Shown: positions 8,641 through 13,859 of the stretch, piece after piece | Position numbering within the stretch: the stretch's first letter is position 1 | Layout: every line of letters starts with the position of its first letter | Assembly: GCA_016871175.1 (NCBI GenBank) | Contig: VFZL01000043.1 | Coordinates: 1 to 33,717, forward strand | Direction: 5' to 3' | Length of the DNA: 33,717 nucleotides | Source: Acidimicrobiia bacterium | Lineage (GTDB): Bacteria > Acidobacteriota > Vicinamibacteria > Vicinamibacterales > CAVVIG01 | The notes under the pieces: generated by a model | What the model saw: only the letters and a program-made list of their open reading frames with translations | Told to the model about the DNA's origin: nothing | The model's database searches: none | Made by a program: the position numbers and the translations under genes

Positions 8641-9807
8641 ATGACCCACTGGTTCAATCGATGGATCTCGCACCGGTTCCTGGCGCTCGTGCAGAAGGAG
8701 CTCAATCAGATCAGGCGCGATCGGCGGATCATGATGTCGCTCATCCTGCCGCCGATCATGCAGCTGATGCTCTTTGGCTCGGTCATGAACCCCGAAGTCG
8801 CCAACGTCAACCTGGGCATCGTCGACTACAGCCAGTCGCCACAGAGCCGTGACCTGATTGCCGCGCTCACCCAGAGTGGCAGCTTCACGCTCTACGACGC
8901 GTATCCGTCCGCCGACGATCTCGGCGAGGACCTGCGCCAAAGCGTCGTTGACGCCGGCATCGTCATCCCAGGCGAGTTCGCTCGCGATCTCACACGCGGT
9001 CGGCCGACGACGATACAGGTGTTGTTGAACGCCATGAACTCGAATACCGCGGCGATCAGTCAGGGGTACGTCGCTGGGGTCGTCGCCGGATTCAACCAGA
9101 CGCGGGCGTCGACGGTGCAGCCGGCGATGGCATCGGTCGGTGACGCCCGCCCCATGGGTTGGGGACGCGCGCTGCTCCGGTCGACGCTGCTCTACAACCC
9201 CGGCGGGATCACCACATGGTACTTGGTGACCGGCCTCTTCGGCACGCTGCTCATCATGAACGGCACCATCACGGCGTCGACGACCATGGTGAAGGAACGC
9301 GAGGCGGGGACCCTCGAGCAGCTGCTCATGACGCCCGCGGCCATCTCCGAGATCATCGTCGCGAAGATTGCGCCGCCATTCTTCCTGCTGGGCATCACGG
9401 CGTCGGTGGCCATCGCGGTGATCCGGCTCTACTTCCAGGTTCCGTTCCACGGGAGTGTGCCGCTGGTCGTGATCTCATCCGCGTTGTGCCTGCTGTGCGG
9501 AATCGGCATTGGCACGGCCGTCGCGACGATCACGAAGTCCGCGCAGCAAGCGCAACTCACGACCTTCTTCATCTCCCCCCCGCTGATGTCACTGTCCGGC
9601 GCGATCACACCAGCCGAGGCGCTGCCGGAATGGCTGCGGCCATGGACGGCGGTGAATCCCGTCTACCACTTCGGCGTGATCACACGCGCGAGCTTGATCA
9701 AGGGCAGCGGATTCGCGGACCTCTGGGTCAACGTGCTGGCGCTGACGGCCTTTGCGTTGGTGCTGGTGTCCATCAGCGTGTGGCGTTTCCGCAAACAACT
9801 GACGTAG
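8641..9807 (+). CDS. ABC-2 family exporter permease (YbhR-like)
   Basis: This is the second ABC-2 permease, 388 residues, paralogous to its upstream neighbour. Both begin with a KEL.Q..RDR segment and share the extracytoplasmic pattern (here IVDYSQSPQSRDLIAALTQS and LLNAMNSNTAAISQGYVAG). The EREAGTLEQLLMTPA motif before the helical core is the hallmark of ABC-2 exporters of this type. C-terminal helices include TFFISPPLMSLSGAITPAE and a final span near residues 360-380. GGAG lies a few bases upstream of the ATG. The gene ends with TAG, one of several genes in the window that show TAG is an ordinary stop here. Confidence 0.9.
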   Translation: MTHWFNRWISHRFLALVQKELNQIRRDRRIMMSLILPPIMQLMLFGSVMNPEVANVNLGIVDYSQSPQSRDLIAALTQSGSFTLYDAYPSADDLGEDLRQSVVDAGIVIPGEFARDLTRGRPTTIQVLLNAMNSNTAAISQGYVAGVVAGFNQTRASTVQPAMASVGDARPMGWGRALLRSTLLYNPGGITTWYLVTGLFGTLLIMNGTITASTTMVKEREAGTLEQLLMTPAAISEIIVAKIAPPFFLLGITASVAIAVIRLYFQVPFHGSVPLVVISSALCLLCGIGIGTAVATITKSAQQAQLTTFFISPPLMSLSGAITPAEALPEWLRPWTAVNPVYHFGVITRASLIKGSGFADLWVNVLALTAFALVLVSISVWRFRKQLT

Positions 9808-9828
9808 AGACAAGGAACACGATCTGCG

Positions 9829-11253
9829 ATGAACCGACTGCCGATCGCCGCAGCGCCTGGCTCCGCGCCCCAATCCTTCTGCACCGGCATGGCGGCCCCT
9901 CTGGTCATTCTCATCGCCCTGGCGGCGTCGCCCGCCGCTGGCCAGGCACGTACGCCAGGTGTCAGGCCGCCACTGGCGAATCGCACGCTCACGCTGGACG
10001 AGGCCATCCAGATGGGCGTCGAGCACAATCTCAGCGTCATCAACGGGCGCGAGGGGGTTCGCTTCGCGCAGGGCCAGCGCCGCACGAGCCGTGCGCCGCT
10101 CCTCCCGAGCGCGTTCCTGGACGTCACGGATACTCAGCAACAGCTCAACCTCGCGGCGATGGGCTTTCGGTTCGATATGTCGGCGTTTCCTGGGTTCCAG
10201 TTGCCGAGCGTGGTCGGCCCGTTCAACCAGTTCGATCTGCGTGCACGCTTCTCGCACACGGTCTTCGATCGGGCGGCGATCAACAGCTATCGCGCGGCTG
10301 GAGAGTCGCTGCGCGCGAGCGAGCTCAGCGCAGACGATGAGCGGGATGCGGTAATCCTGGCCGTGGGCGCCGCCTACCTGCAGGCCATGGCCGCACGGGC
10401 GCTCGTAGACAGCGGCCGGACGCAACTCGACACGGCCAACGCACTGCTCAAGCAGACCCAACAGCGCCGCGCCGTGGGCCTCGTGGCGCAAGTGGACGTG
10501 GACAGGAGTCAGGTGCAGGTGCTCCAGCAGGAGCAGCGCCTCATCGCGCTCCAGAACGACTTCGCCAAGCTGAAGATCGACCTGGCGCGCCTGATCGGCG
10601 CGCAGCCAACGGACCAGTACGCCCTCGAAGACGCCCTCCCCTTCACTGCAGGGCCGCCGCTCGACGTCGACGCGGCGCTCGAACAAGCGCGGGCACAGCG
10701 GCCCGATCTCAGAGCCGCCGACGCGGAGGTCCGCGCCGCCGAGCAGGAGCTGAACGCAGCGCGTGCGGCACATCTGCCCACGGTCCGCCTCAACGGGGAC
10801 TACGGCGTCCTCGGCCCAAACCCGGCTGACGCGCGCCGGACGTTCGCCGTGTCCGGAACCGTTCGTGTGCCGCTCTGGCAGGGGGGCCGGGTGGAAGGGC
10901 AGATCCAGCAGGCCCAGGCGCAGCTCGCGCGTCGGCAAACGGCCCACGATGACCTGCATGCACAGGTCGAGGCGGAGATTCGCAAGGCGCTCCTCGATAT
11001 GTCATCGCTGGCGGCGCAGGTGGCAGTGGCGGAACGCAATCTGGCCGTCACGCGAGAAACCCTCGACCTCACGCGACAACGCTTCGAAGCGGGCGTCAGC
11101 GACAACGTCGAGGTCGTCCAGGCACAGGAGTCGGTGTCGACGGCGGCGTTCGATCACATCAACAGTGTATTCGGGCACAGCGTCGCAAGACTCAGTCTGG
11201 CCCGCGCGCTGGGCAACACGCGTGAACGGCTTCGGTCCTTCCTCGGTCCCTAA
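9829..11253 (+). CDS. TolC-type outer-membrane efflux channel protein
   Basis: This 474-residue outer-membrane factor has a signal peptide (hydrophobic APLVILIALAASPAAG, probable cleavage after the AAGQA region). Two homologous halves each begin with the efflux-protein pattern: LTLDEAIQMGVEHNLSVING in the first half, and LDVDAALEQARAQRPDLRAADAEV in the second. It also has long Ala/Gln-rich helices and the motif ARRTFAVSGTVRVPLWQGGR. Such proteins trimerise into the channel through which periplasmic adaptors deliver substrate. It sits 21 bases after the second permease with AAGGA upstream, so the operon encodes adaptor, pump and channel together, and export probably goes directly to the outside. 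Confidence 0.92.
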   Translation: MNRLPIAAAPGSAPQSFCTGMAAPLVILIALAASPAAGQARTPGVRPPLANRTLTLDEAIQMGVEHNLSVINGREGVRFAQGQRRTSRAPLLPSAFLDVTDTQQQLNLAAMGFRFDMSAFPGFQLPSVVGPFNQFDLRARFSHTVFDRAAINSYRAAGESLRASELSADDERDAVILAVGAAYLQAMAARALVDSGRTQLDTANALLKQTQQRRAVGLVAQVDVDRSQVQVLQQEQRLIALQNDFAKLKIDLARLIGAQPTDQYALEDALPFTAGPPLDVDAALEQARAQRPDLRAADAEVRAAEQELNAARAAHLPTVRLNGDYGVLGPNPADARRTFAVSGTVRVPLWQGGRVEGQIQQAQAQLARRQTAHDDLHAQVEAEIRKALLDMSSLAAQVAVAERNLAVTRETLDLTRQRFEAGVSDNVEVVQAQESVSTAAFDHINSVFGHSVARLSLARALGNTRERLRSFLGP

Positions 11254-11291
11254 GGCCGAGAGGCCCCACGTCAGGGCCGGGCTATACTCGA

Positions 11292-11855
11292 ATGGTGCCC
11301 CGGCATTCGGTCAGCTCGGCGTTGGCGTCCATCGAGCTGCCGGACTCGGACGGTGTGCAGTGGCGTCTGGGCTCGCTCTGGGAGACCGCGCCGGCGGTGG
11401 TCGTGTTCCTGCGCCACTATGGTTGACTGTTCTGCCGAGAGCACGCCGCGCAGTTGCGCGCACGCGAACGCGACATTCGAGCAAGCGGTGCGAACATCGT
11501 GGCAATCGGTCTCGGGGACCGGCACTACGCGCGGATGTTCCGCGAGGACGTGGGGATCTCGTTTCCACTCCTGATCGACGAAGACCGCAAGGCCTATGCT
11601 GCCGCCGAGCTGAAATCGGCGAGCGTGTGGGGTCTGTTCAGACGCGAGACCGCGGCGCACAGACGGCGAGCGAGAGCCGGCGGGTATCGACAGGGCAAGT
11701 TGGGCAAGAACCCGTTCCAGCTCGGCGGGACGTTCGTGTTCGGCCCCGGGAATGTGGACCGCTATGCACATGTCAGCCAGTCGACCGGGGACAACGCACC
11801 AATCGACGAGCTCCTGCGCGCGCTCCAGGCCGCCCTACCCACTGTCGATCGCTGA
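11292..11855 (+). CDS. SelU/AhpC-TSA_2 peroxiredoxin-like protein, candidate selenoprotein (in-frame TGA)
   Basis: The reading frame from the ATG at 11292 is open to a TGA at 11853-11855, apart from one internal TGA at 11424-11426. Read through, it gives 187 residues of the AhpC-TSA_2 (PRXL2/SelU) thioredoxin-fold family: VVVFLRHYG-x-LFCREHAAQL, then VAIGLGDRHYARMFREDVG, FPLLIDEDRKAY, and the C-terminal QLGGTFVFGP...RYAHVSQSTGDNAPIDELL. The internal TGA is codon 45, exactly where homologues carry the first Cys of the CxxC redox motif; the second, Cys48 (TGC), is intact. Cys to Sec at this position is the known pattern in thioredoxin-fold selenoproteins. A SECIS-like hairpin follows. The TolC gene ends 38 bases upstream and an S9 peptidase gene starts 13 bases downstream. 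Without Sec insertion, translation would give a 44-residue fragment. The alternative is a nonsense mutation. Confidence 0.6.
11427..11469 (+). promoter_or_regulatory. SECIS-like stem-loop just downstream of the in-frame TGA
   Basis: Bacterial SECIS elements lie inside the coding region right after the UGA, with a small apical loop containing G and U about 16-37 bases on. Here CGCGC (11447-11451) pairs with GCGCG (11456-11460) around the loop AGTT, whose G is 27 bases past the TGA. A lower stem pairs GTTC-T-GC (11429-11435) with GCGAAC (11464-11469), leaving one bulged T, recalling the bulged U of the fdhF element. The interior loop is large and asymmetric, and the region is GC-rich enough for chance hairpins. 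Folding was done by eye only. Confidence 0.35.
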
Positions 11856-11868
11856 GGTGGAGGGTCTG

Positions 11869-13859
11869 ATGCGTGACCGGCTGACAGCCTTCCTCCGTGC
11901 GACCATCCTGGCGACGTTTGGTCTCGCCGCCGTCACCTCAAGTACCGCCGCACAGTCCGAAACGATCGCGCCCGGCCCGACGCTCGTCGCCGAGGGCATC
12001 CCCTCCATCCCCGCCTCGCTGGCGGCCGACGTGCGCCGCTACGCGGAATCGCGCGGCGCCGCGCTCGAAGACTGGCATCCCATCCGTCGGGAGCTGCTGA
12101 TTGCCACCCGCTTCGCCAACTCGAATCAGATCCACGCGGTGAAGGCACCGGGCGGCGCTCGAACGCAGCTCACCTTCGCAGACGAGCCGATCACCACCGC
12201 GACCTATCAGCCACCGAGGGAAGATACTTCGTCTTCGCCAAGGACGTCGGCGGAAACGAATTCGACCAGCTCTATCGCTACGACGTGCACACGGGCCAGA
12301 CCACGCTTCTGACCGACGGCGGACGCTCACAGAACCGGGATGTGTTGTGGAGCCGGAGGGGCACGCGCATCGCCTACAGCTCGACCCGTCGTAACCGATC
12401 CGACCGTGACATCTACGTCATGGATCCCATGATGCCCACGAGCGACCGGCGCGTCCTGCAGGTCACCGGCGGGGGCTGGCAGCCGCTCGCCTGGTCACCC
12501 GATGAATCGAAGCTCCTCGTGCAAGAGGAGGTGTCTGTTGCGCAGAGCCGCCTGGTTCTGGTCGATGTTGCAACGGGTGACACGACGGCGCTCACGCCGC
12601 GCGACGAACCGGTGGCTTATTGGGCTGCCGCGATGAGCGCCGATGGCCGGGGCGTGTATGTGACGACGAACAAAGACAGCGAGTACCAGCGACTCGCCTA
12701 CCTCGATCTCGCCACCAGGGCGCTCACGCCGCTGACAGTGGACATCCCGTGGGACATCGATCGCATCGAGCTGTCACACGACGGGCGCACGCTGGCGTTC
12801 GTCGCAAACGAGGCAGGCGTCTCGACGCTCCACCTGCTCGATACCGCGGCGCGAACGCATCGGAGAGTGTCCTAGGTTCCGACTGGAGTGATCGACTCGA
12901 TGAAGTGGCATCGAGCCCTGCACGAGCTCGCCGTCACGCTCAGGTCGGCCCGCTCGGCTGGGGATGTGTACTCGTACGCGCCAACGACCACACAGCTCAC
13001 ACGCTGGACGGAAAGCGAGCTGGGCGGCCTCGTCCCGGCGACCTTGTCCGTCGCGGAGCTCGCGCGGTGGCGATCCTTCGACGAACGAGAGATCACCGGC
13101 TTCTACTATCGGCCGCCGTCGCGCTTCACCGGTAATCGGCCGGTGCTCATCAATATCCACGGAGGTCCCGCGGAGCAGTCGTTACCCGTTTTCCTCGGCC
13201 GCAGCAACTACTTCGTGAACGAGCTCGGCGTCGCGATCATCTATCCCAATGTCCGCGGGCCCTCCAGCTACGGCAAAACCTTTCTCACCCTCGACGATGG
13301 GACGAAGCGCGAGGATGCAGTCAAGGACATCGGCGCACTCCTCGACTGGATTCGTACACGGCCCGAGCTTGACGCCGATCGCGTGATGGTGGCGGGTGGC
13401 AGCTACGGTGGGTATCTGGTGCTGGCCGTGTCCACGACGTACAGCGATCGCATTCGATGCGCCCTCGATGTCGTTGACATCTCGAACTTCAATACCTTCC
13501 TCAAGAACACAGAGAGCTATCGGCGGGACCTGCGCCGCGCCGAGTACGGCGACGAACGCGACCCGGCGATGGCCGCCTTCTTCGAGCGGACGGCGCCGCT
13601 GAACAACGCCGGCAAGATCACCAAGCCGCTCTTCGTGGTCCAGGGGGGAAATGATCCGCGTGTGCCGCGCACTGAGTCTGAGCAGATGGTGACGCGGGTC
13701 AAACAGAACGGCACCCCCGTCTGGTATTTGATGGCATCAGACGAGGGTCACGGGTTCGCGAAGAAGGCGAACGTCGACTTTCAGTCCTTCGCCACGGTTG
13801 TCTTCATGAAGGCTTATCTCCTGGGTGACGCCCCTCTCGCCGCTCCGGGTAAGCCCTGA
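11869..13859 (+). pseudogene. Secreted S9 prolyl-oligopeptidase-family peptidase, one frameshift and one amber codon
   Basis: A signal peptide (ATILATFGLAAVTSSTAAQS) is followed by a TolB/WD40-like beta-propeller (SPDESKLLVQEE, LSHDGRTLAFVANEAG) and a C-terminal alpha/beta-hydrolase domain of an S9 peptidase. The catalytic residues are all present: Ser in GGSYGGYL (codon at 13401), Asp in GGNDPRVP (13653) and His in DEGHGF (13749). The gene is broken twice. At about 12212 one base is missing, so that TATYQPP continues as EGRYFVFAKDVGGNEFDQLY only in another frame. At 12873-12875 a TAG interrupts RRVS-x-VPTGVIDSMKWHR in the same frame. GGTGGAGGG precedes the ATG. The intact active site and otherwise clean frames mean the damage is recent or is sequence error. 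Full length would be about 663 residues, normal for the family. Confidence 0.85.

Follow-up and report, generated by a model that had tools for sequence, protein, structure and literature searches.

A bacterial PRXL2/SelL-like redox protein with a predicted selenocysteine in a UxxC motif

The window analysed here is a stretch of 33,717 nucleotides, contig C43 of a 4.44 Mb genome (G000) that is 96.8% complete. Between an efflux cluster and a broken peptidase gene lies a frame interrupted by TGA, which an earlier note, written from the letters of the DNA alone, had put forward as a candidate SelU-type selenoprotein gene of bacteria. The features that matter for the argument are as follows.

9829..11253, + strand: outer-membrane efflux protein (OEP) gene of an ABC efflux cluster, with 38 nt between its end and the selenoprotein gene
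11292..11855, + strand: gene for a predicted selenoprotein of 187 aa, Sec being residue 45, in the SelL-related / PRXL2-like (AhpC-TSA_2) redox family (homologues, tree, AlphaFold model)
11424..11426, + strand: in-frame UGA, predicted Sec45, opening the UxxC motif (75 of 80 related loci likewise have TGA here)
11433..11435, + strand: codon of Cys48, the putative resolving Cys of UxxC (conservation, alignment to human PGFS)
11447..11460, + strand: bacterial SECIS-like hairpin, CGCGC / loop AGUU / GCGCG, 5 bp, loop 25 nt after the UGA
11869..13859, + strand: S9 peptidase gene, separate from the selenoprotein and disrupted (frame shift, TAG)

The frame starts with ATG at 11292, and its single internal stop is the TGA at 11424-11426 (codon 45); 142 open codons follow, up to the terminal TGA at 11853-11855 (codon 188). 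The coordinates and motif given in the earlier note (44 open codons, TGA at codon 45, then 142 codons) proved exact. With TGA read as U, the translation runs ...VVVFLRHYGULFCREHAAQL..., giving the motif FLRHYG-U-LFCREH, and GC at third codon positions is 0.89 upstream of the TGA and 0.78 downstream. The statement that homology continues on both sides of the TGA holds for two families, PF00578 (AhpC-TSA; 44.9 bits, residues 10-108) and, with the read-through protein, NF040769 (122.2 bits against a cut-off of 120, residues 12-177), both of which span the TGA, but not for PF13911 (AhpC-TSA_2), whose over-cut-off match (67.5 bits, residues 54-163) lies wholly downstream. A six-frame search of the genome with NF040769 scored the window at 113.4 bits, below the cut-off of 120; our guess is that this is probably due to the TGA not being read as Cys in such a search.

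The upstream efflux cluster comprises TetR, HlyD, ABC-ABC, two ABC-2 permeases and the OEP. Downstream, the lesions that had been noticed in the S9 peptidase gene are a TAG at 12873 and, before it, a shift of the reading frame somewhere between about 12200 and 12310. As this in-frame stop is TAG rather than TGA, the peptidase is ruled out as a second selenoprotein. Crude ORF calling and blastp clustering of 74 parsed loci plus the window revealed no conserved neighbourhood (the largest cluster held 4 loci), so both the efflux cluster and the S9 peptidase are taken as incidental, and the selenoprotein gene is, from its sequence surroundings, best seen as stand-alone. A scan of 9700-12000 for sigma-70-type promoters found none (0.1 expected), and two terminator-like sites within the gene, at 11538-11555 and 11713-11732, are taken as chance occurrences (0.9 expected).

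In 80 related loci drawn from GTDB genomes, the codon at the Sec position is TGA in 75, TGC in 4 and a Gly codon in 1 (L087). Seventy of the 75 TGA loci were parsed by script and five were read off translations; Cys accounts for 4 of 74 parsed rows. The hosts are mostly named as Acidobacteriota, with further loci in Actinomycetota, Planctomycetota, Myxococcota/Deltaproteobacteria, desulfobacteria, Armatimonadota, Chloroflexota and one archaeon. A separate set of 49 rows, which takes in the window itself and one gene seen twice, reads UxxC in 37, UxxU in 3 and CxxC in 9. Some genes occur in both collections; L025 is the window itself, and L046 and L082 are one gene (G394). The mixture of TGA and TGC/TGT that the earlier note had proposed looking for at this codon is present in both collections, and its argument that a TGA would be unlikely to fall on this very codon by chance is borne out by the recurrence of TGA there. 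Searching 396 genomes of the phylum with NF040769 gave matches over the cut-off in 36 genomes; among the 40 such matches listed, 32 have an in-frame TGA (3 of them two) and 8 are stop-free. The window gene is one of many such genes and no isolated case. Two loci depart from the common pattern in other ways: L134 has a frame change after the TGA, and L150 is UxxA, without the resolving Cys.

A tree was built from 116 of 123 proteins, leaving out L082, L122, L136, L151 and three sequences identical to another row. The window falls in a 40-row clade (support 95/90) within a 47-row clade (100/98), all rows of which are Sec forms, and at least 8 changes between Sec and Cys are required on the tree (over starred branches). 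Its nearest row is L103, at 64% identity. Judged by its neighbours, the organism of the window is probably an acidobacterium. Three rows of the same tree, L045, L048 and L056, are UxxU, with two TGA codons three codons apart, a SelL-type motif. G025, a genome from the same genus as that of the window, carries two other TGA-bearing paralogues (L026 and L037, 32% and 29% identical to the window protein). A close orthologue of the window gene was looked for in G025 and none was found, which suggests gene transfer or differential loss.

AlphaFold2, run on 46 aligned window and locus proteins with Sec entered as Cys, returned a model with pLDDT 95.1 and pTM 0.90, in which residue 45 stands directly before helix 46-57. 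In the alignment of these 46 proteins (A3), R41, H42, G44, residue 45, R49, F83 and D167 are invariant and Cys48 nearly so (at least 90%); all 46 match NF040769 at E <= 0.001. The best solved structural match is human prostamide/prostaglandin F synthase (PGFS), which we take to be PRXL2B, in its C44S/C47S form (Z 22.3, rmsd 1.6 over 159 residues); the wild-type chain gives Z 18.1 over 140 residues and a profile match at E 2.5e-21 over positions 16-176. The motif cysteines of PGFS, 44 and 47 (Ser in 9usa), align with Sec45 and Cys48. Typical peroxiredoxins carry the motif PxxxTxxC around the peroxidatic residue; the window protein has FLRHYGULFCR in its place. Membership of the PRXL2/AhpC-TSA_2 fold family is supported by the PF13911 match and by a predicted fold of PRXL2 type with UxxC at the N-end of a helix. 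With the PRXL2 family (SelU, or PRXL2A, and PGFS) the protein shares the PF13911 domain and the PGFS profile match, but it is bacterial and has a bSECIS-type hairpin inside the coding frame. It also passes NF040769, 'SelL-related redox protein', though close to the cut-off. The label 'SelU-type' is thus only loosely right: the kinship with the PRXL2 fold stands, but NCBIfam files the protein as SelL-related and its nearest structure is PRXL2B/PGFS, so that on sequence it would more precisely be called a PRXL2/SelL-like Prx.

SelL itself is described, in the accessible parts of PMC3316567 and PMC2397514, as carrying two Sec two residues apart that form a diselenide bond. The window protein is likewise Prx-like with Sec first in the motif, and three relatives are even UxxU; its own motif is, however, UxxC (ULFC), which differs from that of SelL proper. 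Review tables and a GOS table list bacterial 'Prx-like' selenoproteins (PF00578, UxxC/UxxU), WP_010940744.1 being one of the catalogued proteins, and the entries of the review tables seen include 'AhpC/TSA family' selenoproteins (PF13911/cd02970, UxxS). Compared by table entries, these catalogued proteins have the same Pfam domains and a like Sec motif, although the PF13911 entry is UxxS where the window has UxxC.

What such a protein would do is constrained by the fold to thiol-redox chemistry, and a role as a thiol-dependent peroxide or disulfide reductase is likely from these sequence relationships. Structures of PrxQ/Bcp, AhpE and ResA are also strong matches to the window protein, and for this reason the fold cannot pick between peroxidase and disulfide reductase. 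We lean towards peroxide reduction as the main activity. That Sec is inserted but serves mainly a disulfide reductase or isomerase, or an enzyme dedicated to a particular substrate, for instance a lipid endoperoxide (the name of PGFS points that way), is a substantial if minority possibility: the nearest solved fold is that of the human synthase and ResA thiol-disulfide oxidoreductases match as well, but the strong matches to PrxQ/Bcp, AhpE and ResA together leave the fold indecisive, and no conserved gene neighbourhood hints at a substrate.

The remaining alternatives concern the TGA itself, and one of them, that it is a nonsense lesion in a decaying pseudogene, takes its appeal from the adjoining S9 gene with its frame shift and TAG. 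Constraint beyond the TGA speaks against it. In 106 of 110 TGA rows, at least 110 codons follow the TGA without any stop, and the other four are three UxxU rows, in which the second UGA ends the count, and one row cut by a contig end; the further lesions that the earlier note had suggested looking for in TGA-bearing relatives are, as far as stops go, lacking in those 106 rows. With a Nei-Gojobori script applied separately to the stretches up- and downstream of the TGA, the window against L103 gives dN 0.298 and dS 1.179 upstream and dN 0.354 and dS 1.131 downstream; against L071, dN/dS is 0.306/2.622 upstream and 0.388/1.311 downstream. Across eight pairs of relatives, the ratios for the part after the TGA range from about 0.06 to 0.37. 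In one of these pairs, L111/L126, the 42 codons before the TGA give dN 0.102 and dS 0.101, a ratio of about 1 and no sign of constraint there. Downstream dN is well under dS in the window and in all eight pairs, the 188 codons of the window gene hold no other lesion, the same TGA recurs in related loci and throughout the clade of 47 rows, and the genome has the Sec machinery described below. A pseudogene is, on all these counts, very improbable.

The earlier note had also proposed looking for that machinery: selA, selB, selC and selD were all found, each over its family cut-off. tRNA-Sec lies on C15 (74.6 bits against a cut-off of 47 for RF01852; ARAGORN calls it tRNA-SeC with anticodon tca), and selA (504 bits), selB (340 bits including a neighbouring stretch, cut-off 242) and selD (379 bits, cut-off 125) adjoin one another on C29, all in the same direction. 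The selD gene (L020, G000:C29:36649-37569) has its own in-frame TGA, in AAGUAAKL. A second Prx/ResA-like gene on C30 (L038, G000:C30:46396-46722) contains a TGA within WUPYC, followed by a hairpin of 7 bp, and likely encodes a second redox selenoprotein of the genome. The Sec genes together with the TGA codons in selD and L038 indicate that UGA is very probably translated as Sec in several of the organism's genes.

The models differ in how well they discriminate. In 14 control genomes, RF01852 found matches at E <= 0.001 in all 14, over the cut-off in 5; the selB and selD models matched in all and exceeded the cut-off in 2, and the SelA model matched in 2. In the window's genome the second over-cut-off match of RF01852 is a tRNA-Ser. 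Across the family, 22 of 27 genomes had tRNA-Sec matches over the cut-off; since a score of around 50 bits may also come from a tRNA-Ser, these counts are left out of the argument. Of 50 genomes whose copy has the TGA, 48 gave a SelA match, compared with 11 of 22 with the stop-free form, a comparison of 72 genomes classed mostly from match tables, with codons read for fetched loci only, and, since the genomes are related, no test of independent events. The two TGA-form genomes with no SelA match, G129 and G429, are drafts of 91% and 75% completeness. Genomes with selA beside a stop-free form of the protein include G132, G190, G298 and G369.

For bacterial SECIS elements, the available portion of PMC13188914 gives limits of a 3-9 nt loop with G in its first two positions, a stem of 4-16 bp, a distance of 16-37 nt from the UGA and an MFE of at most -7.5. 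The window hairpin falls within these limits (AGUU with G second in the loop, 5 bp, 25 nt), with a marginal energy: the bare hairpin has -7.5 kcal/mol, exactly the limit of the model, and fragments of 18 to 24 nt that hold it have -8.6 to -8.8 kcal/mol. Within its own sequence it does not stand out. The window MFE does not favour the hairpin over shuffles (z 0.87, -0.17, 1.21), 34% of other codons of the gene match or beat it, and it pairs with a probability of 0.02-0.04 in a context of -30..+90 nt and of 0.59-0.89 in three shorter contexts. As far as sequence can tell, the window hairpin is therefore marginal on its own, and support comes from relatives.

In these, hairpins lie in the register of the window, the longest stems having 7 bp, and other subfamilies have the hairpin displaced from that register. 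The hairpin score differs between 40 TGA and 9 Cys rows (one-sided Mann-Whitney p 9e-5, the rows being related). A simplified, unbulged bSECIS model fits 88 of 110 TGA rows compared with 1 of 13 Cys rows; these rows are likewise related, and a few of them are repeats. In a fixed register with a 7-bp stem, 68% of cells pair in distinct Sec rows and 50% in Cys rows, and offset 9 ties this for the Sec rows (68% paired, 62% in Cys rows). Covariation was assessed in an alignment, A1, of 23 of the 40 Sec rows, picked for an AG-type loop in the window's register and hence not an unbiased sample. There, pairing holds in 94.6% of stem cells, and 32 cells are changed on both sides, each value being reached by 0 of 500 shuffles, and slid versions of the alignment reach at best 67.3% pairing. 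The 5 pairs with double changes and the 11 further pair types are not above shuffles (reached by 131 and 194 of 500, respectively); these two of the five measures, the ones that fail, are also those least fooled by relatedness. The loop sequence alone is no independent evidence, because part of it lies in the codons of the well-conserved Gln54-Leu55.

These relatives also bear on the possibility that the TGA is a sequencing or assembly error for TGC or TGT. The contig is a draft and Cys forms do occur elsewhere in the family, but TGA recurs in many other assemblies, and most of the TGA assemblies have a SECIS-like hairpin that 12 of the 13 Cys rows lack, so that an error is scarcely credible. 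Either error or decay, then, is a very unlikely source of the TGA. Equally improbable is termination at the UGA with the downstream part made separately, or misreading of the UGA as another residue: an ORF with a TTG start does exist at 11454-11855, but its product would have neither the N-terminal strands nor the UxxC motif, the window gene shows dN smaller than dS before as well as after the TGA, the non-TGA rows are Cys save one Gly, and the Sec machinery is present.

Taken together, we regard selenocysteine at codon 45 as highly probable from sequence, a judgement carried chiefly by the conservation of the TGA, by the constraint beyond it and by the Sec genes. The earlier proposal of a bacterial Sec form thus stands, with Sec genes in the genome, a conserved TGA, Cys homologues and a SECIS-like hairpin in relatives. 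We infer insertion of Sec in the organism, together with the chemistry, substrate and partner, along the following lines. SelB and Sec-tRNA(UCA) would bind the hairpin downstream of UGA 45 so that Sec is inserted, and the terminal UGA, codon 188, would end translation normally. The product would be a thioredoxin-fold, peroxiredoxin-like thiol oxidoreductase with Sec as the attacking residue: Sec45, at the N-end of helix 46-57, would attack a peroxide or disulfide, Cys48 would resolve it as a selenenylsulfide, and a thioredoxin-type partner would reduce this bond.

The kind of protein is already known from the Prx-like UxxC/UxxU tables, from SelL and from NF040769, and the window gene is an additional member. 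For Acidobacteria, the part of PMC1794560 available to us counts 4 selenoproteins of 3 families, and a search of the open literature, which leaves most subscription papers outside, found no paper that names the family or treats it in Acidobacteriota. Gene-calling software for which TGA always means stop would presumably close the frame at codon 44 or open it beyond the UGA, and the enzyme may in this way easily be lost from annotation, here and in relatives. The family offers a large natural set of switches between Sec and Cys with an in-frame SECIS, and with it human PGFS gains bacterial relatives that use Sec and are accessible to biochemistry. A broader proposal is that Sec is the old, normal state of a stand-alone bacterial PRXL2/SelL-like enzyme in Acidobacteriota, Actinomycetota, Planctomycetota, Myxococcota and desulfobacteria, with at least 8 swaps between Sec and Cys and with UxxU among the Sec forms, and that this enzyme may be the source lineage of eukaryotic SelL, SelU and PGFS. 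As a joint claim we consider it speculative and rather unlikely to hold in full. For many named relatives, assembly titles hint at soil or peat (palsa, bog, depths in cm); by comparison, SelL, known from fish, invertebrates and marine bacteria, is said in the accessible text of PMC2397514 to be restricted to aquatic organisms.
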